Positions 4,125-17,764 are shown, numbered from the stretch's first letter. The stretch is DNA of 64,000 nucleotides from Arthrobacter sp. SLBN-83 (GCF_006715285.1 NZ_VFMX01000001.1:3968001-4032000), one strand, 5' to 3'. Translations and numbers: made by a program. The notes: generated by a model not told the origin, from the sequence alone.

Positions 4125-5201
4125 TTAGTCGTCGGGTCCTTCCAGGTCTCCAGCGCGAGGGTTCGGTCCCTGGGGGTTAGGTCCTGGACCCGATGCTGGC
4201 AGGCCAAGCGATAGCTTCACTTCAGAGTTGTCGACGGAGTGGAGACCGTCGCGGTCATACGTCCATGCATCAAAATAGTTGACAGGCGGCACAAGCGGGA
4301 CATCGAAGTCGTCCAGCACCGACATGAGCTTGGGGACCTCTTCAGGCTTGAAGCTGTAGTGCAGCCCGCCAAACAGGTCGAAGCCGCCGCGTGCACCGAG
4401 GTGATGCGGCATCAAGTACCTCGGACGGTACGCAGGCACGATGACTCGGGCCTGAGTAACAATTCTGGACTCGGGACCGGGCTGCCAGATTTCGAATGTT
4501 TGAAGATCCGCCGCGCGCATGGCTTTACCGAGGTTGCTGAGGGGCGCCCCGCGATTTTCCCCCTCGACAAGGTGCTCCTTTGTGAGTTCGGAGCCTCCGG
4601 CGCCACTATCCGAAACGTAAAGGGTAAGGATCTTACCGGGGGTCTGCACCTTGAAGATGAAGCCGAAGGTCTCGATACCACCGTCGGCAGGGCTCTTCTC
4701 TCCGACGCGGACGCTGTGAACCCATTTCACGACGTGCATCTCAACGTGAGGGCTTAGCTGAAACTTCTCTCCTCCCTTGACGGGTTGGAGCTGTGAGGCT
4801 GGAATTCCATACGCGGCCGCCTCCGCACAGGCGTTGGCCGATGCTATTAGCGTCGCTCCGGTCTGTTTTACCCACTCCGGTGTATCAACCGAGTGATCTC
4901 CATGCAGGTGTCCTAGCAGGACGTACTGGATCGTCCCCCTTTTTTCCAACCCTTCGCGTACTTTTTGGACGACTGCGGGGTTCGGTTCGGCGGCCGGGAA
5001 GCCTACTGCGCCGTCCAGGAGGATCCCTAGCTCACCAATTTGATAGTGCCAGTTGCTAATGCCAAACCAAGTCATGCGGACTTCTTTTGGGACTCCCGGC
5101 CGGGCGGTGGCGGCATTTGCGGCGGTGGCTTGTGATACCGAGGCTGCAACAGCTGCTGCGGAAATTCCGGCGAGTGCGGTACGCCGATTTATGTCTTTCA
5201 T
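4125..5201 (-). CDS. Tat-exported metallo-beta-lactamase-fold hydrolase
   Basis: 358-residue protein of the MBL fold. The N-terminus (residues 1-33) carries a twin-arginine signal, with RR at 6-7 followed by a hydrophobic Ala-rich stretch and an ANA-type cleavage site, so export by the Tat route is expected. The zinc motif HLHGDHS is at about residues 98-104. A later His is in HHLGARGG, and DSGAGG may supply the bridging Asp. The C-terminal tail is rich in Pro, Gly and Asn. The start has AAGGGG upstream. Substrate unknown; UlaG/RomA-like hydrolases are possible relatives. It stands alone between the pseudogene operon and a gene-free stretch. Confidence 0.75.
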   Translation of the reverse strand: MKDINRRTALAGISAAAVAASVSQATAANAATARPGVPKEVRMTWFGISNWHYQIGELGILLDGAVGFPAAEPNPAVVQKVREGLEKRGTIQYVLLGHLHGDHSVDTPEWVKQTGATLIASANACAEAAAYGIPASQLQPVKGGEKFQLSPHVEMHVVKWVHSVRVGEKSPADGGIETFGFIFKVQTPGKILTLYVSDSGAGGSELTKEHLVEGENRGAPLSNLGKAMRAADLQTFEIWQPGPESRIVTQARVIVPAYRPRYLMPHHLGARGGFDLFGGLHYSFKPEEVPKLMSVLDDFDVPLVPPVNYFDAWTYDRDGLHSVDNSEVKLSLGLPASGPGPNPQGPNPRAGDLEGPDD

Positions 5202-5810: not shown

Positions 5811-6671
5811 TTACGTGGTTGTAAGTTCCGCTGCCACATCCAGGTTTTCCCGGGCGGGTTCCGCAATGCGTTGCCGGCTCTGACGACGGGCCATTGCGGT
5901 CGCGAGCAGGCCGAGCGCAATGTTGACCAGCATGAACCCGATGGCGGCGACGACCTGGGCCTGCAGCAGTGAGCGGCTGTAGTAGGTGCCGATGACGGTG
6001 GCGCTTCGCAGGAGCTCGATGTACCCGCCGAGCACATAGGCAAGTGCGGTGCCTTTGAAGAGGATTACCATTTGGCTGACCAGAGCCGGGCTCATGGAAC
6101 GGAGGGCCTGGGGCAGGAGGACCAGCTGCATGGTCCTGAACCCGGAGAAGCCGAGGGCTTCGGCCGCTTCGGTCTGCCCATACGGGATGGCGCGGATCCC
6201 TGAGCGGAGGAGATCTCCCACGACTGCGCTGCTGAACAGGGTCAGGGCGATGACCAGGAACCAAAAATCGGAGAGCTTCAGTCCGTAGGTCGGCAGGACC
6301 AGTGACGTGAAGTAGAGGAGGAGGAGCAGCGGGACGCTGGCAAAGACGTCGGTGAAGATCCGGCACGTTATGCGGACCGGAGCCTTCCGTGACAGCAACC
6401 CGAAGGCGAGCAAGGTGCCGAAGATCAGTGACAGGGCCATGCCGACGGCGGCTGCCCTGAGGTTGTTCAGTAGCCCTTGGCCAAGGAGCGCCCACAGCCC
6501 TGGCTGGGTGAAGGGTTTCCAGGCTGCGGGGCTGAACTCCCCGTGTTCCTCAAGCAGGGCATAGGCCCCGTAGAGGCCCAGGGCAAGCAGGGCGATGCAG
6601 AGGACTTCGATCAGTGTGTGGCGCCGGCGGGCCCGGGGGCCGGGAGCGTCGAACAGTACTTTTGTACTCAT
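5811..6671 (-). CDS. Amino-acid ABC transporter permease (GluD-like)
   Basis: 286-residue inner-membrane permease of the His/Glu/Gln family of ABC importers. It has about six hydrophobic segments and the EAA loop around EAAEALGFSGFRTMQLVLLPQA, which docks on the ATPase. An extended basic N-terminus precedes the first membrane segment (residues 20-42). It overlaps the preceding permease gene by ATGA (6668-6671) and is the last gene of the four-gene cassette binding protein - permease - permease with the ATPase upstream. Substrate probably glutamate or a related polar amino acid, by family resemblance only. Confidence 0.88.
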   Translation of the reverse strand: MSTKVLFDAPGPRARRRHTLIEVLCIALLALGLYGAYALLEEHGEFSPAAWKPFTQPGLWALLGQGLLNNLRAAAVGMALSLIFGTLLAFGLLSRKAPVRITCRIFTDVFASVPLLLLLYFTSLVLPTYGLKLSDFWFLVIALTLFSSAVVGDLLRSGIRAIPYGQTEAAEALGFSGFRTMQLVLLPQALRSMSPALVSQMVILFKGTALAYVLGGYIELLRSATVIGTYYSRSLLQAQVVAAIGFMLVNIALGLLATAMARRQSRQRIAEPARENLDVAAELTTT

Positions 6672-7312
6672 CGGCTGAACGCCGCCTTTCGATCCAAAGT
6701 GCTGACCAGGCGGCCGACGAGGAGGCCTATCAGCAGGTAGCTGACAGCTGCGCCGCCGAAGATGAGAAAGGGTTGGGCCTCGTCCACGGCTGCCTTGTTA
6801 GTGGCGAATGTTAGGTCCGCGACGCCCACCAGTGCGGCGACCGAGGTGTTCTTGATCATGGTGATCAGGACGTTGCCCAACGGCTGGACCACGGTCCCGA
6901 AGGCCTGGGGCAGGATCACGTGTTGCATGGCAGGGCGTGGACCGAACCCGAGGGCACGCAGGGCTTCCAGTTCGCCCGTGGATACCGTGTTCAGCCCGGA
7001 CCGGAGTGTTTCACTGACAAACGGTGCCGTATAGATCACGAGCACAATGCCGGCGGAGGCGAAGAGGGAGTACTGGATGCCAAGAAGCGGCAGCCCGAAG
7101 ACAAACAGGACCATCTGGACCGGCAACGGGATGTTCCGGAAAACCGTCACGTAGGCCGCTGCTGCAGCGTTGAGGGTGCGGATGGGGCTGACGCGCATGG
7201 CCGTCAGGACCGTTCCCAGGACCAGGGCTCCCGCCCAGCCCAGGACGGTGAGCTCAAGGGTGATCAGGACTCCACTGCTGAAGTCTGCGATGTAACCGGA
7301 GAAAAACGACAT
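6668..7312 (-). CDS. Amino-acid ABC transporter permease (GluC-like)
   Basis: 214-residue permease partner of the preceding protein, of the same HisMQ/GluCD family. The EAA motif is seen as GELEALRALGFGPRPAMQHV, with five hydrophobic segments. Gene order and the tight spacing (8 nt after the binding-protein stop, 4-nt overlap with the next permease) indicate one transcript and a heterodimeric channel. Confidence 0.9.
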   Translation of the reverse strand: MSFFSGYIADFSSGVLITLELTVLGWAGALVLGTVLTAMRVSPIRTLNAAAAAYVTVFRNIPLPVQMVLFVFGLPLLGIQYSLFASAGIVLVIYTAPFVSETLRSGLNTVSTGELEALRALGFGPRPAMQHVILPQAFGTVVQPLGNVLITMIKNTSVAALVGVADLTFATNKAAVDEAQPFLIFGGAAVSYLLIGLLVGRLVSTLDRKAAFSR

Positions 7313-7320
7313 GTCAGACC

Positions 7321-8187
7321 TCAGAGGGTGATGTGCGGCGGTGTGACATCAGAAGGTTTGGCAACGCCAATGGTGTTGTCATAGGCCTTCTTCCACTCAC
7401 CGTTGTCTTCGATTTTCTTGAGGAAGCCGTCCAGGTAGTCGTGCCAGGCCGTGTCGTCCTTGGCGGACCCGATGGCGTATTCCTCGCTTGCCATGTAGTC
7501 GCCGACGAGTTTGAAGTCGCCCTTGTTCTGGTCCATCAGGCCCAGGAGCAGCGATTCGTTGGTGACGACTGCGTCAACACGCTTCTGCTTAAGGGCCTGG
7601 GCGCACTCGCTGTAAGTGCCGAACAGGGTCAGTTTTGCCTGCGGCGCCAAAGTGGGCAGAAGCTGGGCTGCCCGGGCTCCCGTCGTGGTGCAGACCGGTT
7701 TGCCGTTGAGGTCGTCCTTGTTCGAAATTGACGAGTCATCGTTGCGAACCATGGTTGAAACGCCGCTTTCCAGGTACGGGCCTTCAAAAGCCACGGCCTT
7801 TTTCCGCTCATCGGTCACGGCGTAGGACGCGAGGATCGCGTCGACCTTGCCCTGCTGGAGGAATGCCTCGCGGTTGGCTGTCACCGCCTCGACGTATTCG
7901 ACGTTGTCCTCGCTGCCGGTGAGGTCTTTGGCGAGGAGCTTGGCCAGTTCGATGTCCAGGCCTTCCATGTCACCGGTCACCGGGTTCTTCACCCCGAACA
8001 TGGGCTGATCGAACTTGACGCCGACGACGATCTTTCCGCGCTGCTGGATCTTGGCCATGGTGGTTCCGGCCGGAAAACTCTGAACTGGGGTGCTGGCCGC
8101 CGGAGCGGTGGGGCTGCCGCAACCGGTGGCGCCCAAGGCCAGGGCAGCCGTGATGGCGAGAGGGGCGATGATTCGGATCTTTTTCAT
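7321..8187 (-). CDS. Amino-acid ABC transporter substrate-binding lipoprotein (GluB-like)
   Basis: 288-residue solute-binding protein of family 3. A lipoprotein signal is clear: MKKIR, a hydrophobic core, and a lipobox ending GATGC with the lipidated Cys at residue 23. The mature part carries GKIVVGVKFDQPMFG, EGLDIELAKLLAKDLTG and a DAILASYAVTDERKK segment typical of glutamate/glutamine binders. It should be anchored to the outer face of the membrane and feed the two permeases encoded directly downstream. Confidence 0.9.
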   Translation of the reverse strand: MKKIRIIAPLAITAALALGATGCGSPTAPAASTPVQSFPAGTTMAKIQQRGKIVVGVKFDQPMFGVKNPVTGDMEGLDIELAKLLAKDLTGSEDNVEYVEAVTANREAFLQQGKVDAILASYAVTDERKKAVAFEGPYLESGVSTMVRNDDSSISNKDDLNGKPVCTTTGARAAQLLPTLAPQAKLTLFGTYSECAQALKQKRVDAVVTNESLLLGLMDQNKGDFKLVGDYMASEEYAIGSAKDDTAWHDYLDGFLKKIEDNGEWKKAYDNTIGVAKPSDVTPPHITL

Positions 8188-8243: not shown

Positions 8244-9008
8244 TTAGTGAACCGAGGAGAGAAAGCTGCGTGCCCGTTCGCTGGCGGGCGCGGAAAAGAA
8301 GGACTCAGGGTCAGCGGACTCGATGATTGCGCCGTCTGCCATGAAGATGATCCTGTCCGCGCATGACCTGGCGAAGGACATCTCGTGGGTGACGACAAGC
8401 ATGGTAGTGCCGCCTTCGGCCAGTTGGCGCATGGTGGCCAGCACGTCCTGTGTGGATTCGGGGTCCAGGGCTGATGTCGGCTCATCGAAGAGGATGACTT
8501 TCGGGTCCATGGCCAGTGCCCTTGCGATGGCGGCACGCTGGGACTGGCCGCCGGAGAGCTGTGCCGGGTAGGAGTCGGCTTTGGAGCCGATGCCCACCAT
8601 GTTCAGCAGCTCGCGGGCCCGGCGTTCAGCATCGGCTTTGCTCTGACCGAGAATCTTCCGTGGGGCGAGGGTGATGTTGTCCATGATGGTGCGGTTGGAA
8701 AACAGGTTGAACGACTGGAAAACCATGCCGACCTCGGTCCGGAACTTGAACAGTTCCTTCCCTTCGGCGGGCTGCGGGGCGCCGTCGACGAGAATCTGGC
8801 CGCTGTCGATGGTTTCGAGTCGATTGATCGTGCGGCACATGGTGGATTTGCCTGATCCGGAGGGGCCAAGGACGACGACGACCTCCCCGCGTTTGACCCG
8901 CAGGTTGATATTCCGCAGGGCATGCAGGGCGCCGAAGTGCTTTTCGACGGCACGGAGTTCAACAACAATGTCGCTCTCCGCTGGCTGGGGCACGGTGTTT
9001 TCGGGCAT
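8244..9008 (-). CDS. Amino-acid ABC transporter ATPase (GluA/GlnQ-like)
   Basis: 254-residue ATPase that powers the amino-acid importer. Walker A GPSGSGKST is at about residues 48-56, the Q-loop at VFQSFNLF, the signature LSGGQ at 150-154, Walker B/D-loop LFDEPTSALD at 172-181, and the switch His in VVTHEMSFA. The start at 9008 (MPENTV) is preferred over an in-frame ATG at 9155, since the family begins about 15 residues before the VELRAVEKHFG strand; the upstream extension is not family-like. First gene of the cassette, 56 nt before the binding-protein gene. Confidence 0.92.
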   Translation of the reverse strand: MPENTVPQPAESDIVVELRAVEKHFGALHALRNINLRVKRGEVVVVLGPSGSGKSTMCRTINRLETIDSGQILVDGAPQPAEGKELFKFRTEVGMVFQSFNLFSNRTIMDNITLAPRKILGQSKADAERRARELLNMVGIGSKADSYPAQLSGGQSQRAAIARALAMDPKVILFDEPTSALDPESTQDVLATMRQLAEGGTTMLVVTHEMSFARSCADRIIFMADGAIIESADPESFFSAPASERARSFLSSVH

Positions 9009-9087: not shown

Positions 9088-10065
9088 TCAGTGAAGACCG
9101 AGCTCGGTGAGGGTGCCGGCCACCCTGCTTTCCTGCTGCCGAAGGAAGGTTTCAAACTCCGCCCCGGTGCTGAAGGAGTCTTTCCAGCCGTTGTCCAGGA
9201 GGGCCTGTTTCCACTCGGGCGAATTGTGAAGCCGGGTCAGCGCTTCGATGAGCCTGTTGCGGTCCCCGTCCGACAGCCCGGGTGGAGCCATGAGCCCGCG
9301 CCAGTTGGTGAATGCCAGGTCGATTCCGGCTTCGCGCAGGGTTGGCGCCTGGACGCCGTTTTGCCGTTCCTGCCCTGATACAGCCAGAACCCGCAGCTGG
9401 CCTGAGGTGATTTGTTCCTCGTACTCGGCTATGCCGGAGGTCCCGAAGGTGATTTTGTTGCCGAGCAAGGCTGGCAGCAGTTCCCCGCCGCCGGAGTAGG
9501 AGCGGTAGCTAACGGCGGCTGTCTTGATGCCGGCGGCGCGCGCCAGTTCCATGGGAAACAGGTGGTCCGGTCCCCCGACGGCTGAGCCTCCCCCGACCGT
9601 GATGGAGGCAGGGTCGGCTTTCCACGCCGCCACCAAATCCCCCACCGTCTGGTACGGGGAGTTCGCCGGGACGAGAATACCTTCGGGTTCTTCGAGCAGC
9701 TTCGCCACGGGGGTGGCGTCGGAGACCTTGAGCCTGGAGCCGTTGGCGTAATTGGATCCAACCACCCCAAGGCCCATCATCATCACAAGGCCGCGGTTTC
9801 CGGTCTCGTTCATCAGCCGCGCCATGGCAACGCTGCCGCCCTCGCCCGGGACGTTGAAGATCTCCATATGCCCGGCAATGCCTGCATCCTCCATGACGCG
9901 GGCTGCGATTCGTGCAGTGATGTCATAACCGCCGCCGGGGCTGTTGGGGACCATCATCCGGGTGGGGTTCACCAGGGTCGCCTCTGGGGTGGAAGTCCCG
10001 CACGCGGCCAGGGCAAGGAGGCTGGCAAGGGCGATGACGCGCACAGCCTTCCGCAGTGCCATCAT
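9088..10065 (-). CDS. TctC/Bug-type tripartite tricarboxylate transporter binding lipoprotein (orphan)
   Basis: 325-residue binding protein of the TctC (Bug) family. It begins after an almost ideal AAGGAGGTGAG. The signal peptide ends in a lipobox LAAC with Cys at residue 22. The mature protein shows MMVPNSPGGGYDITAR, MGLGVVGSNYANGS, VGGPDHLFPMELARAAGI and YEEQITSGQLRVLAVSG, the usual ligand-loop and hinge motifs for carboxylate ligands. No TctA or TctB membrane partner is present. It is divergent, across 100 bp, from a CitA/DcuS-type kinase operon and lies 79 nt upstream of the amino-acid ABC ATPase gene on the same strand. Inference: a carboxylate binder that may serve signalling rather than transport, or may work with a TctAB encoded elsewhere. 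Confidence 0.88.
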   Translation of the reverse strand: MMALRKAVRVIALASLLALAACGTSTPEATLVNPTRMMVPNSPGGGYDITARIAARVMEDAGIAGHMEIFNVPGEGGSVAMARLMNETGNRGLVMMMGLGVVGSNYANGSRLKVSDATPVAKLLEEPEGILVPANSPYQTVGDLVAAWKADPASITVGGGSAVGGPDHLFPMELARAAGIKTAAVSYRSYSGGGELLPALLGNKITFGTSGIAEYEEQITSGQLRVLAVSGQERQNGVQAPTLREAGIDLAFTNWRGLMAPPGLSDGDRNRLIEALTRLHNSPEWKQALLDNGWKDSFSTGAEFETFLRQQESRVAGTLTELGLH

Positions 10066-10165
10066 GGTTCTCACCTCCTTGCCTTGTGCGCCCAGGCCCC
10101 CTTGTGCCGTGGCTACTATCAAAGCGTGACCCATGTCATGAGGTGCTGTCACTGTTAGCGAAGCA

Positions 10166-11779
10166 ATGAAGGTTGTGGTCTTTGTGGTCGCATTAGCACC
10201 GGGACGCCGGCTGAGCCTATCCCGGCAGTTCCTGCTCCTCCAGCTCGGGGTGATCACCATAGTTTTGCTGGCTGTAACGATGGTGTCCGTCACCCAGTCA
10301 CGGGCTGACTTCGTGGAGGTCCACGGACAGAGGATGCTGGCAATAGCCGAGAATCTCGCTTCCACGCCCGTCGTCAGGGACGATATTGCCGCCGCACAGG
10401 CCTCTGTCATCCTGGCCCCTGACGTGGACAAGGCCCGCGCCCTCTCCGGGGCTTCGGTCGTCGCCATTACCAACCCCGGAGGGGCCGTTCTGGCCTCCTC
10501 CGAGCCGGAAGCTGTCGGAGACGAGGTGGACCTGGCGGCGGAGAAGAGCCCGCTGGGGCGCTCCTGGACCGGCAACCTCGCCTTATGGGGACGGCAAACC
10601 ATCGCAGCGCGCGTCCCGGTCCTGAAGTCGGATGGGACAGTCCTGGGTCTTGCTGTGGTCGCCGAAGATTACCCAGCGTTTGGCAGCGCCTTGGCCGCAG
10701 CGGTGCCCGACTTGATGTTCTTCCTGGGTATGGGCGCCGCACTGGGCCTGGCAGGCTCCTGGCTGCTGTCACGCCTGATCCGTCGGCGAACCAGGGGGTT
10801 GGAACCCGAGGAAATCGCCGAATTGGCCGACAACCGTGAAGCGCTGCTCTACAGCATCCGTGAAGGCGTCATTGGTATCGGGCCTGACGGAAGAATCACC
10901 CTGCTCAACCAACCAGCCATCGAACTGCTCGGACTCGCAGGAGATTCCGTCGGCAAACGCACCCAGGAACTGCCACTCGAGAAAAACGTACGGGACCTGC
11001 TGCTGGGCACCACAGATGCAGAAGAGACCATGGCGGTCAGCGGCTCCCGGCTGCTGGTCCTGAACCGGAGGACCGTCGGCAGCCGCGGCAAACCAATCGG
11101 AACCGTAACAACGCTCCGGGACCGGACAGAGCTGGCCGAACTTCAAAGCCAGCTCGCGGCGAACCAAAGCATCACCGAAACCCTCCGGGCCCAAACCCAT
11201 GAGTTCTACAACCAGCTGCACACCGTCTCAGGCATGCTGCAACTGGGCGACTTCGCCGAGGTCAAGTCCTTCATCCGGGCATTGACCCGGCGACGCGCCG
11301 AGATCAACGGGGAGATCGCCAGTCGCATCGGTGATTCATCGGTAGCTGCGCTGCTTGTGGCTAAAATAAGCCTCGCTGAAGAATCTGGTATCGACCTCCG
11401 GCTCGACAAGGAATCGCAGCTTGGCCCGCTGGAGCCATCCCTGGCAGCCGACGCCATCACCGTGCTCGGAAACTTCATTGACAATGCTGTCGACGCAATC
11501 GCCGGCCTGGAGGAGGCCACCGTACTCGTACACATCAGCGACAAGAATTCAATGCTCACCATTAAAGTCAGCGATCCGGGCCCAGGAGTACCCGAGGACC
11601 TTGAACAGCGGATCTTCACCCGCGGCTTCAGCACTAAGCCCGCACCTGCAGCCGGACGCGGGGTCGGTCTCGCGCTGGTTCGCCTCGTCTGCTCAAAAAG
11701 AAAAGGATCAGTAACAGTGCGCAACGACCATGGTGCCGTCTTCGAGGCAACCCTCCCCTACGCTACAGCCCGCCGATGA
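10166..11779 (+). CDS. Sensor histidine kinase, CitA/DcuS family
   Basis: 537-residue membrane sensor. Transmembrane segments at about 21-43 and 181-203 enclose an extracellular sensor domain of about 135 residues. A cytoplasmic PAS-like domain spans about 220-325, and the histidine box THEFYNQLHTVSGMLQL puts the phospho-acceptor at His345. The ATP-binding N box is LGNFIDNAVDA, with G boxes DPGPGVPE and GRGVGLALV. CitA/DcuS kinases respond to di- and tricarboxylates. The stop overlaps the regulator start by ATGA. No good ribosome site precedes ATG 10166; a slightly later start is possible. Divergent from the orphan TctC-like gene. Confidence 0.9.
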   Translation: MKVVVFVVALAPGRRLSLSRQFLLLQLGVITIVLLAVTMVSVTQSRADFVEVHGQRMLAIAENLASTPVVRDDIAAAQASVILAPDVDKARALSGASVVAITNPGGAVLASSEPEAVGDEVDLAAEKSPLGRSWTGNLALWGRQTIAARVPVLKSDGTVLGLAVVAEDYPAFGSALAAAVPDLMFFLGMGAALGLAGSWLLSRLIRRRTRGLEPEEIAELADNREALLYSIREGVIGIGPDGRITLLNQPAIELLGLAGDSVGKRTQELPLEKNVRDLLLGTTDAEETMAVSGSRLLVLNRRTVGSRGKPIGTVTTLRDRTELAELQSQLAANQSITETLRAQTHEFYNQLHTVSGMLQLGDFAEVKSFIRALTRRRAEINGEIASRIGDSSVAALLVAKISLAEESGIDLRLDKESQLGPLEPSLAADAITVLGNFIDNAVDAIAGLEEATVLVHISDKNSMLTIKVSDPGPGVPEDLEQRIFTRGFSTKPAPAAGRGVGLALVRLVCSKRKGSVTVRNDHGAVFEATLPYATARR

Positions 11780-12450
11780 TCAGCGTCCTCATCGTCGAAG
11801 ATGATTTCCGGGTAGCGGGAATCCACTCCCGATTCGTGAACCAGACCGATGGCTTCCACGCGATAGGCACTGTCCACAACGGGAAATCCGCGCGCGAAGC
11901 AGTCCAAAAACTGCGCCCTGACCTCATCCTCCTGGATGTTCACCTTCCCGACGCGAACGGCTTGGACCTCCTCCGGGAATGGCGCACACAGCGCGTCCCG
12001 GTCGGTGTCATCATCATCACCGCAGCAACCGAAGCACACAGCGTCCGCGATGCCCTCGAAGGGGGCGCGGTCCACTACATCATCAAGCCGTTCGAATACG
12101 AAGACCTGGTGGCCCAGCTCCAACGCTTCCGGGACCAAGTCAAAGCACTAAGCCACGCCGCGGCGGCCGGGCAGGAAGACATCAATAAGATCTTCGGATA
12201 CTCGGCCGCTCCACTCACGGAGACGCTGCCCGTGCTTCCCAAAGGCCTCAGCGCAGAGACCGCGGCGCTCGTGGCAGAATTGCTCGGGTCCGGCAAAGAA
12301 ACGTCCGCCTCTGACTGCGCTGACGCTCTCGGAATATCCCGGGTCAGCGTGAGGCGGTACCTCGAGTACTTCGCCGACACCGGACGTGCAACCGTACGTC
12401 TTGAATACGGCCGGGCAGGACGCCCCGAACGCAAATACCGGCGAAGATAA
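11776..12450 (+). CDS. Response regulator, CitB/DcuR family
   Basis: 224-residue DNA-binding partner of the kinase just upstream. The receiver domain (1-120) has the acidic pair ED at 8-9, the phospho-acceptor in LLDVHLPDA (Asp54), and the Lys in IKPFEYEDL. The C-terminal helix-turn-helix reads ADALGISRVSVRRYLEYF, as in CitB/DcuR regulators. Likely targets are nearby carboxylate genes such as the divergent tctC-like gene; the decayed MHS transporter could also once have been a target. This is inferred from position only. Confidence 0.9.
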   Translation: MISVLIVEDDFRVAGIHSRFVNQTDGFHAIGTVHNGKSAREAVQKLRPDLILLDVHLPDANGLDLLREWRTQRVPVGVIIITAATEAHSVRDALEGGAVHYIIKPFEYEDLVAQLQRFRDQVKALSHAAAAGQEDINKIFGYSAAPLTETLPVLPKGLSAETAALVAELLGSGKETSASDCADALGISRVSVRRYLEYFADTGRATVRLEYGRAGRPERKYRRR

Positions 12451-12522: not shown

Positions 12523-13533
12523 CTAAGAGGGCAGTTGGCTGGATTCGCGTGCGATGGCTTCCACGAGCGCGCCGTCGGGCGCGCGCAGGTTCGTGTCGTA
12601 TCCGAGAATGCTCGCGATACGCGCGGCTATGCCCTCCGCCTCGGTAGTGAGGTCGAAGCGGACGCTGCTCAGTGACGGGTTGGTCAGTGCTGCCACCAGA
12701 GTGTCGTCTCCGCCGATCACGCCTAGGTCGTGCGGGACCCGAATGCTCAACTTAGCTGCTGCGCTGAGGATACCAAGCCCGGCGAGGTCATTCCAGGCGG
12801 CCACCCCCAGCGGCTCAGGTGACGTGGCAACCCAGCCGCTCAAAGCTGAGATGATGCTTTCAAGGTTCTGATCCGCCACGGTGATGAGCGCATCAGGGAT
12901 ACCGCGCGCGCGGCAGATCTCATCGAACGCGGCGACGCGGGCATCAACGAACTTCCGGCCACGAGGTTCATCCATCGCCATGTATGCCAGACGCCTGTAC
13001 CCCTGGTTCAGGAGATGGTCTACCTGTGCGGCGACAATCGCGGCCTGACCAATGGTCGTCGTGTGCGGGCTTCCAGGGTAGTCGAGGATCCCCGTGTGCA
13101 CTTCCGGCACCCCCGCGGACTGCAATGCCCTCGCATCATCCTCAGACAATGGATCGAAGGTGACGACGCACGCCGCAGAGATGCGGGCAAGAACCGTATT
13201 GAGCGAGCCCTGCCATTGGGCTCCTTCGTAGCGCAGACATACCAGGCCGTGCTGGCCGACGAGTTGTCCGACGTGCCCCAGGAGAAGCTCAAGTTGACCG
13301 GTCACTTCCCAATCGGGCAATAACAGCAGCACGACGTCACCGCGTCCGTTGCGCAGCGCCCTGGCGGCAGGTGAACCGACGTACCCGATCCGGCGGGCAA
13401 CATCGAGCACACGGCGACGGGTCGTATCACTGACCCTCACATCCCGACGGCCGTTGAGGACGTAACTGACAGTCGCCCGTGAAACACCGGCTTCCCTGGC
13501 AACGTCTTCAGTCCTTACCGGTCCGTCTGTCAC
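12523..13533 (-). CDS. LacI-family transcriptional regulator
   Basis: 336-residue repressor. The N-terminal helix-turn-helix reads TEDVAREAGVSRATVSYVL with the hinge region after RRIGYVGSPAARALR; the rest is a periplasmic-binding-like ligand domain. The GTG start at 13533 is preferred over the ATG at 13569 because GGGAGGAA lies 7 nt upstream and the HTH then begins near residue 7, as usual. It is divergent from an MFS transporter and two hydrolases, which it probably represses. A GTG-N5-CAC dyad lies just beyond the predicted promoter of that operon. Confidence 0.9.
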   Translation of the reverse strand: MTDGPVRTEDVAREAGVSRATVSYVLNGRRDVRVSDTTRRRVLDVARRIGYVGSPAARALRNGRGDVVLLLLPDWEVTGQLELLLGHVGQLVGQHGLVCLRYEGAQWQGSLNTVLARISAACVVTFDPLSEDDARALQSAGVPEVHTGILDYPGSPHTTTIGQAAIVAAQVDHLLNQGYRRLAYMAMDEPRGRKFVDARVAAFDEICRARGIPDALITVADQNLESIISALSGWVATSPEPLGVAAWNDLAGLGILSAAAKLSIRVPHDLGVIGGDDTLVAALTNPSLSSVRFDLTTEAEGIAARIASILGYDTNLRAPDGALVEAIARESSQLPS

Positions 13534-13552
13534 AGATCTTCCTCCCCAATGC

Positions 13553-13603
13553 TTGACGCGAGTAACCATACACCCTTATGGTCTTCATCACGTGCTTTAC
13601 ACG
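13553..13603 (+). promoter_or_regulatory. Promoter of the MFS-hydrolase operon with a candidate LacI operator
   Basis: TTGACG (13553-13558) and TATGGT (13577-13582) are spaced 18 nt. CGTGCTTTACACG (13591-13603), a dyad with 4-nt arms, covers the expected start of transcription and is placed to act as a repressor site. Confidence 0.5.
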
Positions 13604-13621
13604 ATTAATCAAGGAGGATTC

Positions 13622-14950
13622 ATGTCGTTAGCCCCTGTGTCACCCTCTGGCCAGTCAGCGGGTGCTGAACCCACGGGCGCATATCGCCACCCGTGGCGGG
13701 TCGCGATCATCGCCGGCCTCGCGTCGTTTGTGGACGGCGGGGCACTGACCGTCAACGGCATAGCGTTGGTGATCTACCAGCAGACCATCGGCCTGACACC
13801 GACCGACGTTGGCATGCTGACAGCGGTCGTGACAGTTGCCCTGGCAGTTGGTGCGCTGGTCGGTGGTCGGCTCGGTGATATCTATGGCCGGCGCAAGGTC
13901 TTCATCATCACCATGGCAATGATCGTGATCGGAAGCCTCGCCCCGACCTTCGCGACTGACTTCTGGATTCTTTTCGCGGGACTGGCTCTGCTCGGCTTCG
14001 GTGTCGGCGCGGACCTGCCGGTGTCACTGGCAACGGTAGCGGAAGCGGCGACCGACAAGAACCGCGGCGCTATGCTCGTCTTCTCTCAGGTCATGTGGGT
14101 CGCCGCGGCGTTCATTGTCGTTATCGTCACCACCGCGACAGGAGGGATGGGGCGGCTGAGCGGCCAGATCCTCTACGGTCTGATCGTCGTCGTCGCCCTT
14201 ATCGGCTTGCTCCTGCGACTGACGGTCCCTGAATCTCCCATGTGGTTGCAGTCCCGGGAGGAACGCCGCCTTGGCGTCCACACCATCCGTGCTGACAAGG
14301 CGCGCATGCGGGATCTGCTCCAGCCTCCGTTCCGTCGGCCTTTCGTTGTGCTGATGGTCTTCTACGCTCTCGTCACGTGCGCAAGCACCATCACGAACGC
14401 ATTCTCTACCTATGTCGCCGCGAACGTGGCAGGCATCCCAGTGGAGGAATTCGTCCCCTACTCCCTGGCGCTGTTCCCGATCGGCCTCATCGCCCTGGGC
14501 GTGTACATGAAGTTCGCCGGCGGTCGGTTGAGGATGCCGTTGTTCCTCATCGGTGGAGCAGTGTTCGTGGCAGGGTTAATGATCCCGGTCGTCTTCGGGT
14601 TCAGCCTGGTCACTCTTTTGGGTGCTTGGTTCATTGCCTCCATCGGCCAGACCTCCGCAGGGGAGCCCATCGCACGCATGTGGGCGAATGAATCATTCCC
14701 CACGATGTTGCGTTCGACGGGCCAAGGTTTCGTTTTCACCTTCGGGCGTGTGATGGCCGCGATCACTTCCGCGATCATCCCTGCCCTGATCGTGCTCTCC
14801 CCATCAATGGTCTACATAGCATCAGCAGGCGCTGCCCTGCTCGGCGTCCTCGTTGGATGGATAGGTTTCCGCGGCGGACGCATCACCAATGAGTTCGACC
14901 ACGAGCAGGAACCCACGGCCGTAACCAATGGTGAACCCATCACCACCTAA
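13622..14950 (+). CDS. MFS transporter, sugar-porter-like
   Basis: 442-residue transporter with about 12 membrane segments. GGRLGDIYGRRKVFI is the loop 2-3 motif and LRLTVPESPMWLQSREE the central PESP motif of the sugar-porter branch. The start at 13622 has AAGGAGGA 5 nt upstream; an in-frame ATG at 13553 lies inside the promoter and is rejected. It is first in an operon with two alpha/beta hydrolases and is followed by a strong hairpin at 14983-15013, so the hydrolases may depend on readthrough or their own promoter. Substrate unknown; an ester or lactone would fit. Confidence 0.88.
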   Translation: MSLAPVSPSGQSAGAEPTGAYRHPWRVAIIAGLASFVDGGALTVNGIALVIYQQTIGLTPTDVGMLTAVVTVALAVGALVGGRLGDIYGRRKVFIITMAMIVIGSLAPTFATDFWILFAGLALLGFGVGADLPVSLATVAEAATDKNRGAMLVFSQVMWVAAAFIVVIVTTATGGMGRLSGQILYGLIVVVALIGLLLRLTVPESPMWLQSREERRLGVHTIRADKARMRDLLQPPFRRPFVVLMVFYALVTCASTITNAFSTYVAANVAGIPVEEFVPYSLALFPIGLIALGVYMKFAGGRLRMPLFLIGGAVFVAGLMIPVVFGFSLVTLLGAWFIASIGQTSAGEPIARMWANESFPTMLRSTGQGFVFTFGRVMAAITSAIIPALIVLSPSMVYIASAGAALLGVLVGWIGFRGGRITNEFDHEQEPTAVTNGEPITT

Positions 14951-14982
14951 GCGACGCCTACACCATGCATTACCCAACCCGC

Positions 14983-15013
14983 GCATCCGACGGCGGATGC
15001 CGCCGTCGGATGC
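14983..15013 (+). terminator. Hairpin between the MFS gene and the hydrolases
   Basis: Perfect 14-bp arms GCATCCGACGGCGG / CCGCCGTCGGATGC with a 3-nt loop, 33 nt after the MFS stop. No T-run follows, so it may also be an mRNA stability or attenuation element inside the operon. Confidence 0.55.
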
Positions 15014-15058
15014 CACAAATCATCATCTGCCACTTCCTTGACACACCGGAGTATCAGC

Positions 15059-15994
15059 ATGCCTCTTGATCCCGTCCTCGCCAACCTGCTAACACAGGTG
15101 CCCCCTCCCGTCGTGATCGATGATCCGGCCGCTCATCGCGAGACCGAGCAGACTATCGTCAACGCCCTCGCAGCCCAGCTTGCCGAACCCTACCCGGAAG
15201 TTGCCGACCGGAAGCTGGTCCAGATACCCGTCGAGGGCGGGAGCATAGAGCTGCTGATCTACACCCCCGCCTCCCCTGGCCCGCACACCGGCTACGTCAA
15301 TCTCTTCGGCGGCGGCTTCCGGGGCGGCTCCATCCATTACGACTACATCGACGGAACATGCCGGGAACGGTGCGTCGGGGCTGACGCCGTTGTCATCTCA
15401 GTCGGCTACCGCCTGGCACCCGAACACAAGTTCCCCACCGCCGTCCACGACGCCTACGCAGCACTGCTCTGGGTTACAGAACACGCAGAGGAACTGGGCA
15501 TAGACTCCAACCGAATCGTCATCGGAGGGCAATCCGCGGGCGGAAACATCGCCGCCGCCACCACGCTCATGGCACGCGACAAATCCGGGCCCCCCATCGC
15601 CCTGCAGCTACTGGAAATCCCGGCCCTTGACCTTACCTGGAAAACAATGCTCCACGAATACGACAAGGGATACCTCCTCGAAGCAGCCGAGGCCGACGTA
15701 GTAACCCGCGACCTCTTCGCTGATCCAAAGGACGCAGAGAACCCCTATGCATCCCCCCTCCTGGCCGAGGACCTGTCGGGACTACCCCGAGCGTTGATAC
15801 TTACCTCAGAGTTCGATCTAACACGCGGCAGCGCAGAACTATACGCAGGACGACTCGAAGAAGCAGGCGTTCCCGTCAGCTACATAATGGCTGCAGGACA
15901 GATCCATTCCAGCGCCATGATGACCCAGGTCCTCGATGCCGCCCGGACCTGGCGAGCCAACGCTATCGCCGGGATCAGCAGCGTCTCTGAATAA
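15059..15994 (+). CDS. Alpha/beta hydrolase, hormone-sensitive-lipase-like esterase
   Basis: 311-residue cytoplasmic esterase of the HSL (alpha/beta hydrolase 3) group. The oxyanion motif is NLFGGGFRGG in place of the usual HGGGF, the nucleophile elbow is GGQSAGGN (Ser near residue 161), the acid is likely in TSEFDLTRG, and the His in GQIHSS. The ATG at 15059 is chosen over an in-frame TTG at 15038. The missing first His of HGGG is unusual. It follows the MFS gene and precedes a second hydrolase on the same strand. Confidence 0.85.
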   Translation: MPLDPVLANLLTQVPPPVVIDDPAAHRETEQTIVNALAAQLAEPYPEVADRKLVQIPVEGGSIELLIYTPASPGPHTGYVNLFGGGFRGGSIHYDYIDGTCRERCVGADAVVISVGYRLAPEHKFPTAVHDAYAALLWVTEHAEELGIDSNRIVIGGQSAGGNIAAATTLMARDKSGPPIALQLLEIPALDLTWKTMLHEYDKGYLLEAAEADVVTRDLFADPKDAENPYASPLLAEDLSGLPRALILTSEFDLTRGSAELYAGRLEEAGVPVSYIMAAGQIHSSAMMTQVLDAARTWRANAIAGISSVSE

Positions 15995-16035
15995 ACCGCT
16001 CCCAACTCAACGACCCAAGATTAACGAGAACAAGT

Positions 16036-16875
16036 ATGAGCACCATCACCGTCGCCAACGGAACGACCCTGAACTACGACACCTTCGGTCCCTCCGCCGG
16101 GTCTCCACTGGTCCTCATCGAGGGACTCACCGCCCAGATGATCAAGTGGCGGCCCGAACTCTGCCAGCTCTTCGTCGACGCCGGTTTCCACGTCATCCGG
16201 TTCGACAACCGTGATGTTGGACTGTCGCAGAAATTCGACGGGCAGGAATACTCGATCACCGACATGGCAGAGGACACCGCAGGGCTCATCCGAGCGCTCG
16301 GCATCGCACCGGCAAACATCGTCGGCCAATCAATGGGCGGCATGATCGCCCAAGAACTGGCCATCGCCCACCCAGAACTCGTGGCGTCCCTAGCGCTCAT
16401 CTACACCACAGCATCTGCGAAGTGGCTCCTCCCGCAAGCGGCTGACCGCGAAATCCTGAAGGATCAATCAAGCTTTACGCGTGAAGAAGCAATCCTCGAA
16501 TTCCTGGCCGGCGAACAGGCTTGCCGCTCACGTGACTATGCTCAGGACGTGAACTGGCTACGCCGACTCGCTGCAGAAGCCTATGATCGCGACCCTGTGA
16601 AAAGCGGCAACGCCCGGCAAGCGAAAGCGGTCTTCACCGCCCCCGACCGTGTCGAAAAAGTCCAGGCTATCTCTGCGCCCGCCGTCATTCTTACCGGGGA
16701 CGCAGATTTGCTAATCGACCACAAAGCATCGGACGAACTCCACAACCTGATCGACAACTCGTATCAGCGGGTCTTTCCCGGCATGGGCCACGAAATTCCC
16801 AAACCTCTCTGGCCGGACTTCGTCAGCGAGATCACCAACAACGCGAGCCGAGCAACAGCAGCATCGGCCGCGTAG
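16036..16875 (+). CDS. Alpha/beta hydrolase
   Basis: 279-residue hydrolase of the classical alpha/beta fold. RFDNRDVGLSQ is a conserved loop, VGQSMGGMIAQELA holds the nucleophile Ser, TGDADLLI the acid and FPGMGHEIP the catalytic His. It resembles lactone/ester hydrolases such as the 3-oxoadipate enol-lactonase and epoxide-hydrolase relatives, but the substrate cannot be assigned. It starts 41 nt after the first hydrolase, so the two are probably cotranscribed under the LacI-type repressor. Confidence 0.85.
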   Translation: MSTITVANGTTLNYDTFGPSAGSPLVLIEGLTAQMIKWRPELCQLFVDAGFHVIRFDNRDVGLSQKFDGQEYSITDMAEDTAGLIRALGIAPANIVGQSMGGMIAQELAIAHPELVASLALIYTTASAKWLLPQAADREILKDQSSFTREEAILEFLAGEQACRSRDYAQDVNWLRRLAAEAYDRDPVKSGNARQAKAVFTAPDRVEKVQAISAPAVILTGDADLLIDHKASDELHNLIDNSYQRVFPGMGHEIPKPLWPDFVSEITNNASRATAASAA

Positions 16876-17206: not shown

Positions 17207-17764
17207 ATGCCCACGCCTTATCGGGCGGAGTTCCGCCAGTAATTGATGTGGCCCGCAAGGGCGAGGCACCACTGACGCAGATCGGGAAGGACATCGGACT
17301 TTCTGTCACCACACTCAAGCGCTGGATTGCCATCGCTGAACGTAAAGATTCCAGGGCCGACCCGCCTGCGGCAGAGGCGGCAGAGATGCGGGAGCTGAAG
17401 AAGCGGAACCGCCTTTTAGAGCAGGTGAACGAGACCCAAAATGATCTACCCGCTGGTCACGGATCTTGCCGCCGACGGTGTTCCCGTGGCAGTGACCTGC
17501 AGGGTGTTGGGATTCAGCAAGCAAGGCTATTACCGATGGAAGACCAGCCCGGTAACGGAACGAGACTGGCTCGATGCACACCTGGTCAACGCCGCCCTGG
17601 ACATCCCCGCAGAGGATCCGGCATTCGGGTACCGGTTCATCGCCGACGAACTCCCGGAGAAAGGCATCCTGGCGGGCGAGAACAGGGTCCAGCGCTTATG
17701 CAGGGACCACGGTAGCGAACGAAAGCACCATTTGCAGGGGATTATCGACCGACCATTGCTCTAG
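17207..17764 (+). mobile_element. IS3-family remnant, broken orfA and truncated orfB
   Basis: ATG 17207 starts MPTPYRAEFRQ, then a one-base shift breaks the frame near 17240 and orfA continues as VIDVARKGEAPLTQIGKDI with the transposase helix-turn-helix and a short RELKKRNRLLEQ coil. The orfB part from 17441 (MIYPLVTDLAADGVPVAVT) keeps only about 95 residues of the N-terminal helical domain and GYRFIADELPEKG, and ends before the DDE catalytic core. Not functional. It separates the LacI operon from the nitrilase locus. Confidence 0.8.

Follow-up and report, generated by a model that had tools for sequence, protein, structure and literature searches.

A TctC lipoprotein of the soil bacterium Arthrobacter sp. 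SLBN-83 appears, in a reading that we hold with moderate confidence, to be part of a three-component sensor coupled to an importer: TctC would be the receptor of a pocketless CitA kinase, and this kinase would turn on an ABC importer for tricarboxylates, by which TctBA would have been replaced. The locus was analyzed in a stretch of DNA of 64,000 nucleotides (the window), to which all coordinates refer unless another contig is named. The features are given below with the evidence for each. Identities refer to Arthrobacter sp. ISL-85, which has the same layout, and to related cassettes linked to TcuA.

5811-6671, minus strand: PAAT-type permease 2 (91% identity to ISL-85, 68-70% to TcuA-linked cassettes)
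6668-7312, minus strand: PAAT-type permease 1 (homologue of L263:9601-10245, which matches PAAT permease models)
7321-8187, minus strand: family-3 (SBP_bac_3) binding lipoprotein of the ABC cassette (domain match; amino-group Asp replaced by Asn)
8244-9008, minus strand: GlnQ-like ABC ATPase (94% identity to ISL-85, 73-74% to TcuA-linked cassettes)
9088-10065, minus strand: tctC, orphan TctC/Bug-family binding lipoprotein, 325 amino acids (PF03401, lipobox, ribosome-binding site)
10066-10165, no strand: divergent citA-tctC promoter region, 100 bp (stretch conserved in ISL-85, palindrome)
10166-11779, plus strand: citA, CitA/DcuS-type histidine kinase, 537 amino acids, without citrate-contact residues (domains, alignment)
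10280-10720, plus strand: extracytoplasmic Cache (sCache_3_2) domain of CitA with flanking helices (predicted model)
11776-12450, plus strand: citB, CitB/DcuR-type response regulator, 224 amino acids (Response_reg and HTH_64)

An earlier note on this DNA had described a TctC with the lipobox LAAC, divergent by 100 bp from a CitA-type kinase and its regulator, and an ABC cassette continuing on the tctC strand from 9008 to 5811. Coordinates and domains of tctC, citA and citB agree with this description, and the cassette lies where it had been placed. The citA and citB genes overlap by 4 bp. The intergenic gaps from tctC to the end of the cassette are 79, 56 and 8 bp, followed by one overlap between the two permease genes. 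A TTT transporter has tctB and tctA encoded with tctC; at the window locus neither gene adjoins tctC.

Several features were observed around these genes. Downstream of the cassette, on the same strand, a protein of the metallo-beta-lactamase fold is encoded at 4125-5201, which looks secreted and begins with a twin-arginine-like sequence; no counterpart follows the cassette in ISL-85. On the other side, a LacI-type regulator faces an MFS-like transporter and two alpha/beta-hydrolase-like genes (12523-16875); this looks like a separate uptake locus, which beyond the LacI match was read from translations. The position just past citB, held by the LacI-type gene in the window, is occupied in ISL-85 by a second, distant PAAT-type ABC cassette with binding protein, permease and ATPase (L013:3068-5498). 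An incomplete and out-of-frame remnant resembling an IS3-type transposase is located at 17248-17715.

TctC matches the Pfam profile PF03401 with 88.5 bits (cut-off 27). In the translation the lipobox LAAC follows a basic n-region, and AAGGAGG lies in the sequence immediately upstream of the start at 10065; a longer mechanical open reading frame to 10602 is not credible, as it overruns citA. The loop motifs PGGGYD and GGPDH are present in TctC, a putative carboxylate binder. Between the window and ISL-85 tctC is 90% identical, with a dN/dS of 0.085 at a dS of 0.61, while its neighbours have dN/dS values of 0.050-0.109 and dS ranges from 0.51 to 0.61 across the genes. The tctC gene is under purifying selection and not decaying. 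TctC differs at 16 of 129 near-invariant positions, which gives no sign of degeneration, because other members reach up to 37 differing positions in a baseline that was measured slightly differently.

CitA is the textbook example of a kinase whose own Cache domain binds citrate. The kinase encoded in the window has the domain order of this family (sCache_3_2, a weak PAS, SPOB_a and HATPase) and a CitB-type partner consisting of a receiver and a DpiA-type HTH_64 domain; its score against PRK11086 (DcuS/MalK) is 289.1 bits, below the cut-off of 520. In CitA of K. pneumoniae, citrate is held by R66, H69, R107 and K109, and replacement of a contact residue by Ala lowers the affinity 38- to >300-fold each (PMC3353115). 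A Geobacillus CitA with the exchange R93A, at the residue that corresponds to R66, retains function (PMC11754779). Alignment with E. coli DpiB and DcuS and with G. thermodenitrificans CitA as references places V, S, A and R at these four positions of the window kinase, which thus lacks the citrate contacts, although in window and ISL-85 CitA the K109 position is still basic, being Arg. The four residues are kept by none of the 109 members of its clade, which have V/I/T at R66, S/A at H69, no R at R107 and Q/H/R/E at K109. The comparison group comprised 89 other CitA/DcuS kinases, 30 linked to CitM, 30 linked to DctA, 15 others from Rhodococcus/Mycobacterium, eight others from the genus and six from a second tctCBA lineage. 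Here R-x-x-H is kept wherever it could be aligned (in the DctA-linked group one row is unaligned at R66 and three rows at H69). A later motif scan of six further kinases found R-x-x-H in five; the sixth is without either motif.

A predicted model of the window sensor domain (mean pLDDT 81.8) has the sensor domains of CitA and DcuS as best structural matches (8biy, 8bgb, 2j80, 3by8), which suggests that the sensor fold was retained while the citrate contacts were lost. E62, S94 and W134 are invariant residues specific to the pocketless clade. In a tree of 58 representatives the pocketless kinases form a single clade with a support of 100/100. The second tctCBA-linked kinase lineage has kept the full pocket; this ruled out the idea that TctC linkage always goes with pocket loss. 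Since this lineage retains the pocket, pocket loss is a property of one clade and arose once, and its association with TctC therefore counts as one event. In genome G036 a pocketless citAB does not adjoin tctC (L288:5645-7932), and the tctC of this genome is found near the start of another contig.

The surroundings of tctC were compared in the 80 best TctC relatives (from genome contigs) and in further loci of the genus. In 78 of the 80, tctC is followed by tctB and tctA; of the remaining two, L082 is cut off before tctA and L013, which belongs to ISL-85, is without both. ISL-85 (L013 and genome G056 are identical in sequence) has the layout of the window, citAB facing tctC and then the ABC cassette. 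Seventy-nine of the 80 relatives have citAB facing tctC, but most loci were retrieved by TctC similarity and the linkage of TctC and kinase is therefore partly built into the sample. The exception is L057 from Mycobacterium sp. ACS4331, a tctCBA of the same clade with no citAB within the 8 kb fetched. At the further genus loci citA faces tctCBA in 28/28 tested. Thus, conservation of a tctC/citAB neighbourhood without tctAB, which the earlier note had asked for, is seen in ISL-85 only among these 80 relatives and 28 loci; apart from the truncated L082, tctBA follows tctC in the others. A TctC closer than 59% was found in no other genome in a sample of 150 genomes of the genus.

The TctC and CitA trees both place window and ISL-85 as sister to Nocardiaceae/Mycobacteriaceae modules and away from the tctCBA module resident in the genome; the placement is well supported for CitA and carries a long-branch warning for TctC. 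In the Rhodococcus and Mycolicibacterium modules that group with the window, tctBA follows tctC. Transfer and an old paralogue both fit the trees. A recent duplication of the resident module is not favoured, as both trees disagree with it, and an origin from a plasmid was rejected, the plasmid collection holding no close copy (best TctC 57.8%). A clearly decayed copy with tctC, a truncated citA and a transposase, and without tctBA, is present on a Streptomyces anulatus plasmid (L287:4008-8282).

The absence of TctA and TctB that had been reported applies to the locus and not to the genome, in which a single TctA and a single TctB are encoded 3 Mb away from the window tctC (C1:900.0-901.8 kb). 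They are part of a complete module of citAB facing tctCBA, whose TctC is 57% identical to the orphan TctC. A tctAB pair elsewhere that is co-regulated with the orphan gene had been named as a finding that would speak against a sensing role; the genome search yielded this one tctCBA operon, but under its own citAB. Four CitA/DcuS kinases were found in searches of the genome: the one in the window, the one linked to tctCBA (43% identical), and two more that adjoin a DctA-type symporter and a CitM-type transporter, respectively, both neighbours being named from our reading of the translations.

ISL-85 has lost the canonical module. At the site of its citAB-tctCBA a clean deletion of ~5.1 kb has breakpoints in citB and tctA; both flanks are syntenic and the site is internal to a contig. 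TctB was not found in the assembly, which is 90% complete, and the sole TctA is a 3' stump. On this evidence the orphan tctC survives in ISL-85 without a TctBA partner; given the incomplete assembly, a further TctBA copy may have been missed.

The divergent promoter region was inspected for regulatory sites. About 60 bp of the citA-tctC gap are nearly identical in window and ISL-85. An exact GTGA-N6-TCAC palindrome occurs in 107 of 109 citA-tctC gaps (0.4 expected in shuffles). The window carries GTGACCCATGTCAT at 10126-10139, one mismatch away from this palindrome and the same in ISL-85, although sites with one mismatch are no rarer in the window than expected by chance. Because the palindrome resembles CRP/GlxR-type sites, it could belong to catabolite control and need not be bound by CitB. 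Promoter and terminator scans found nothing.

The cassette had been described as glutamate-type. It has the components of a PAAT importer, an ATPase, a family-3 binding protein and two permeases. Its closest relatives besides ISL-85 are found in three genomes of the genus (64-74% identical), where a GntR gene is followed by those for the ATPase, the binding protein and both permeases and then by TcuA (L263, L264, L265). TcuA is an FAD-dependent tricarballylate dehydrogenase (544.8 bits, cut-off 369). In L236, L238, L275-L278 and L280-L283, which are from other genomes, this GntR-TcuA pair instead lies opposite a tctC; tctBA is visible after this tctC in L236 and L238, whereas the remaining stretches end too early. 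Thus, this cassette family stands in place of TTT genes beside TcuA, and the TcuA neighbourhood shows a transporter swap across the genus, with TctC or tctCBA in some genomes and a PAAT-type cassette in others. A strict partnership of TcuA and cassette was rejected, as many genomes of the genus have close TcuA relatives without a cassette; the TcuA of the window genome is located at C1:1633757, unlinked to the tctC and cassette locus.

In family-3 binding proteins an Asp holds the amino group of amino acids. GluB-like relatives within the genus and four amino-acid binders of solved structure have this Asp, whereas window and ISL-85 carry Asn at its place and the TcuA-linked relatives Thr, so that the window protein lacks the mark of a PAAT amino-acid importer. 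Because the Asp is absent and the nearest relatives lie beside a tricarballylate dehydrogenase, the cassette is probably not for glutamate, and the earlier assignment gives way to what looks like a tricarboxylate importer. We infer that its substrate is a tricarballylate- or citrate-like acid.

The TctC lipoprotein is probably the ligand receptor of the adjoining CitA, because the kinase is without contacts of its own while tctC stays and tctBA is gone from the locus. The suggestion of the earlier note that TctC presents a carboxylate to CitA thus gains indirect support: the kinase clade lacks the contacts, tctC is kept under purifying selection and it persists in ISL-85. In the proposed mechanism an extracellular tri- or dicarboxylate ligand would be bound by the lipid-anchored TctC, and ligand-bound TctC would dock on the Cache domain of CitA, which itself would no longer hold the carboxylate. 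The kinase would pass the signal to CitB, and CitB would activate the divergent operon tctC-glnQ-SBP-permease-permease. The ABC importer, standing in place of TctBA, would take up a tricarballylate- or citrate-like acid via its own family-3 binding protein. The TctC-CitA contact, the control of the operon by CitB, the imported substrate and the sequence of evolutionary events are all inferred. A wider generalization, which we put forward tentatively and at slightly less than even chances, is that the actinobacterial CitA clade has given up direct sensing and depends on TctC, and that in window and ISL-85 TctC was freed from transport and a PAAT-type ABC importer was recruited for tricarboxylates to replace the TTT membrane proteins.

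Other explanations would leave TctC without a part in signalling. CitA could sense a different ligand directly via a remodelled Cache pocket, for which the retained fold and the residues E62, S94 and W134 would offer the material, and TctC would then be an independent relic or scavenger. We regard this as unlikely, since the kinase lies beside TctC in nearly all members found (in a sample partly built on TctC similarity) and tctC has outlasted tctBA. It is also quite unlikely that the orphan TctC is a transport receptor acting in trans for the TctBA 3 Mb away, with the adjacency to citAB merely inherited from an ancestral citAB-tctCBA module. The complete tctCBA in the window genome and the 57% identity of the two TctC proteins would allow this; however, TctBA there already comes with a TctC of its own, to which the orphan TctC is less close than to TctC of Nocardiaceae, and ISL-85 keeps the orphan gene although its canonical tctCBA is deleted and TctB was not found in the 90% complete assembly.

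TctC and the cassette are encoded on the same strand, probably in one operon, and occur together only in window and ISL-85, which would suit a TctC that takes no part in signalling and hands ligand to the ABC permeases as a second receptor. This is improbable, because a family-3 binding protein is already encoded in the cassette, its TcuA-linked relatives have no TctC nearby and the pocketless kinase would be left unexplained; to our knowledge, no TctC proteins serve ABC permeases. Loss of the transporter genes and the decayed copy on the Streptomyces anulatus plasmid could finally suggest that the orphan tctC is a functionless remnant in decay. With lipobox and reading frame intact, a dN/dS of 0.085 at a dS of 0.61 and a conserved promoter region, we consider this very improbable.

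If TctC is the receptor of CitA, the kinase clade, with its fold kept, its contacts lost and TctC as neighbour, would be a clear example of how sensing can pass from a kinase to a binding protein. In Bordetella the sensing and transport roles of the binding protein occur together; because tctBA is gone at the window and ISL-85 locus, the two roles are separable. The proposed reading further predicts a tricarboxylate ABC importer hidden among annotations as glutamate ABC transporter. A literature search, with most subscription papers outside its scope, found neither a tricarballylate ABC importer nor a TctC-dependent CitA.

The closest known parallel is BctC of Bordetella pertussis, which is required for the citrate response of the adjoining BctDE and contacts the kinase in a two-hybrid assay (PMC5812351). 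As in the window, the gene for a TctC-family binding protein adjoins two-component genes. However, BctC also serves BctBA transport from a complete bctCBA operon, whereas the window locus is without tctBA and has a CitA-type kinase with lost contacts. The actinobacterial modules of citAB facing tctCBA in Rhodococcus, Mycolicibacterium and Arthrobacter share the kinase and TctC clade and the divergent layout with the window; they keep tctBA after tctC, a position taken by the ABC cassette in window and ISL-85. CitAB of Corynebacterium glutamicum belongs to the same CitA/CitB family, but its citAB adjoins citH, and direct citrate sensing is expected there because its CitA keeps R66, H69, R107 and K109 (PMC3353115).

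In Ruminiclostridium cellulolyticum the sensor binding protein CuaD and CuaSR control the ABC importer CuaABC, which has its own binding protein (PMC10384115). A dedicated sensor binding protein beside a two-component system and an ABC importer is also what we propose for the window. The Cua system differs in its sugar ligand and in that CuaSR still responds without CuaD (PMC10384115); in the window, sensor and importer binding proteins are from different families (TctC and SBP_bac_3), unlike in the CuaD system. PAAT glutamate/glutamine transporters equal the cassette in gene content and protein families, but in the window the Asp is changed to Asn and the relatives lie beside tricarballylate dehydrogenase. 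Two features set the window locus apart from the Bct and Cua precedents: its CitA-type kinase lacks the citrate contacts, and no genes for TTT membrane proteins adjoin tctC.
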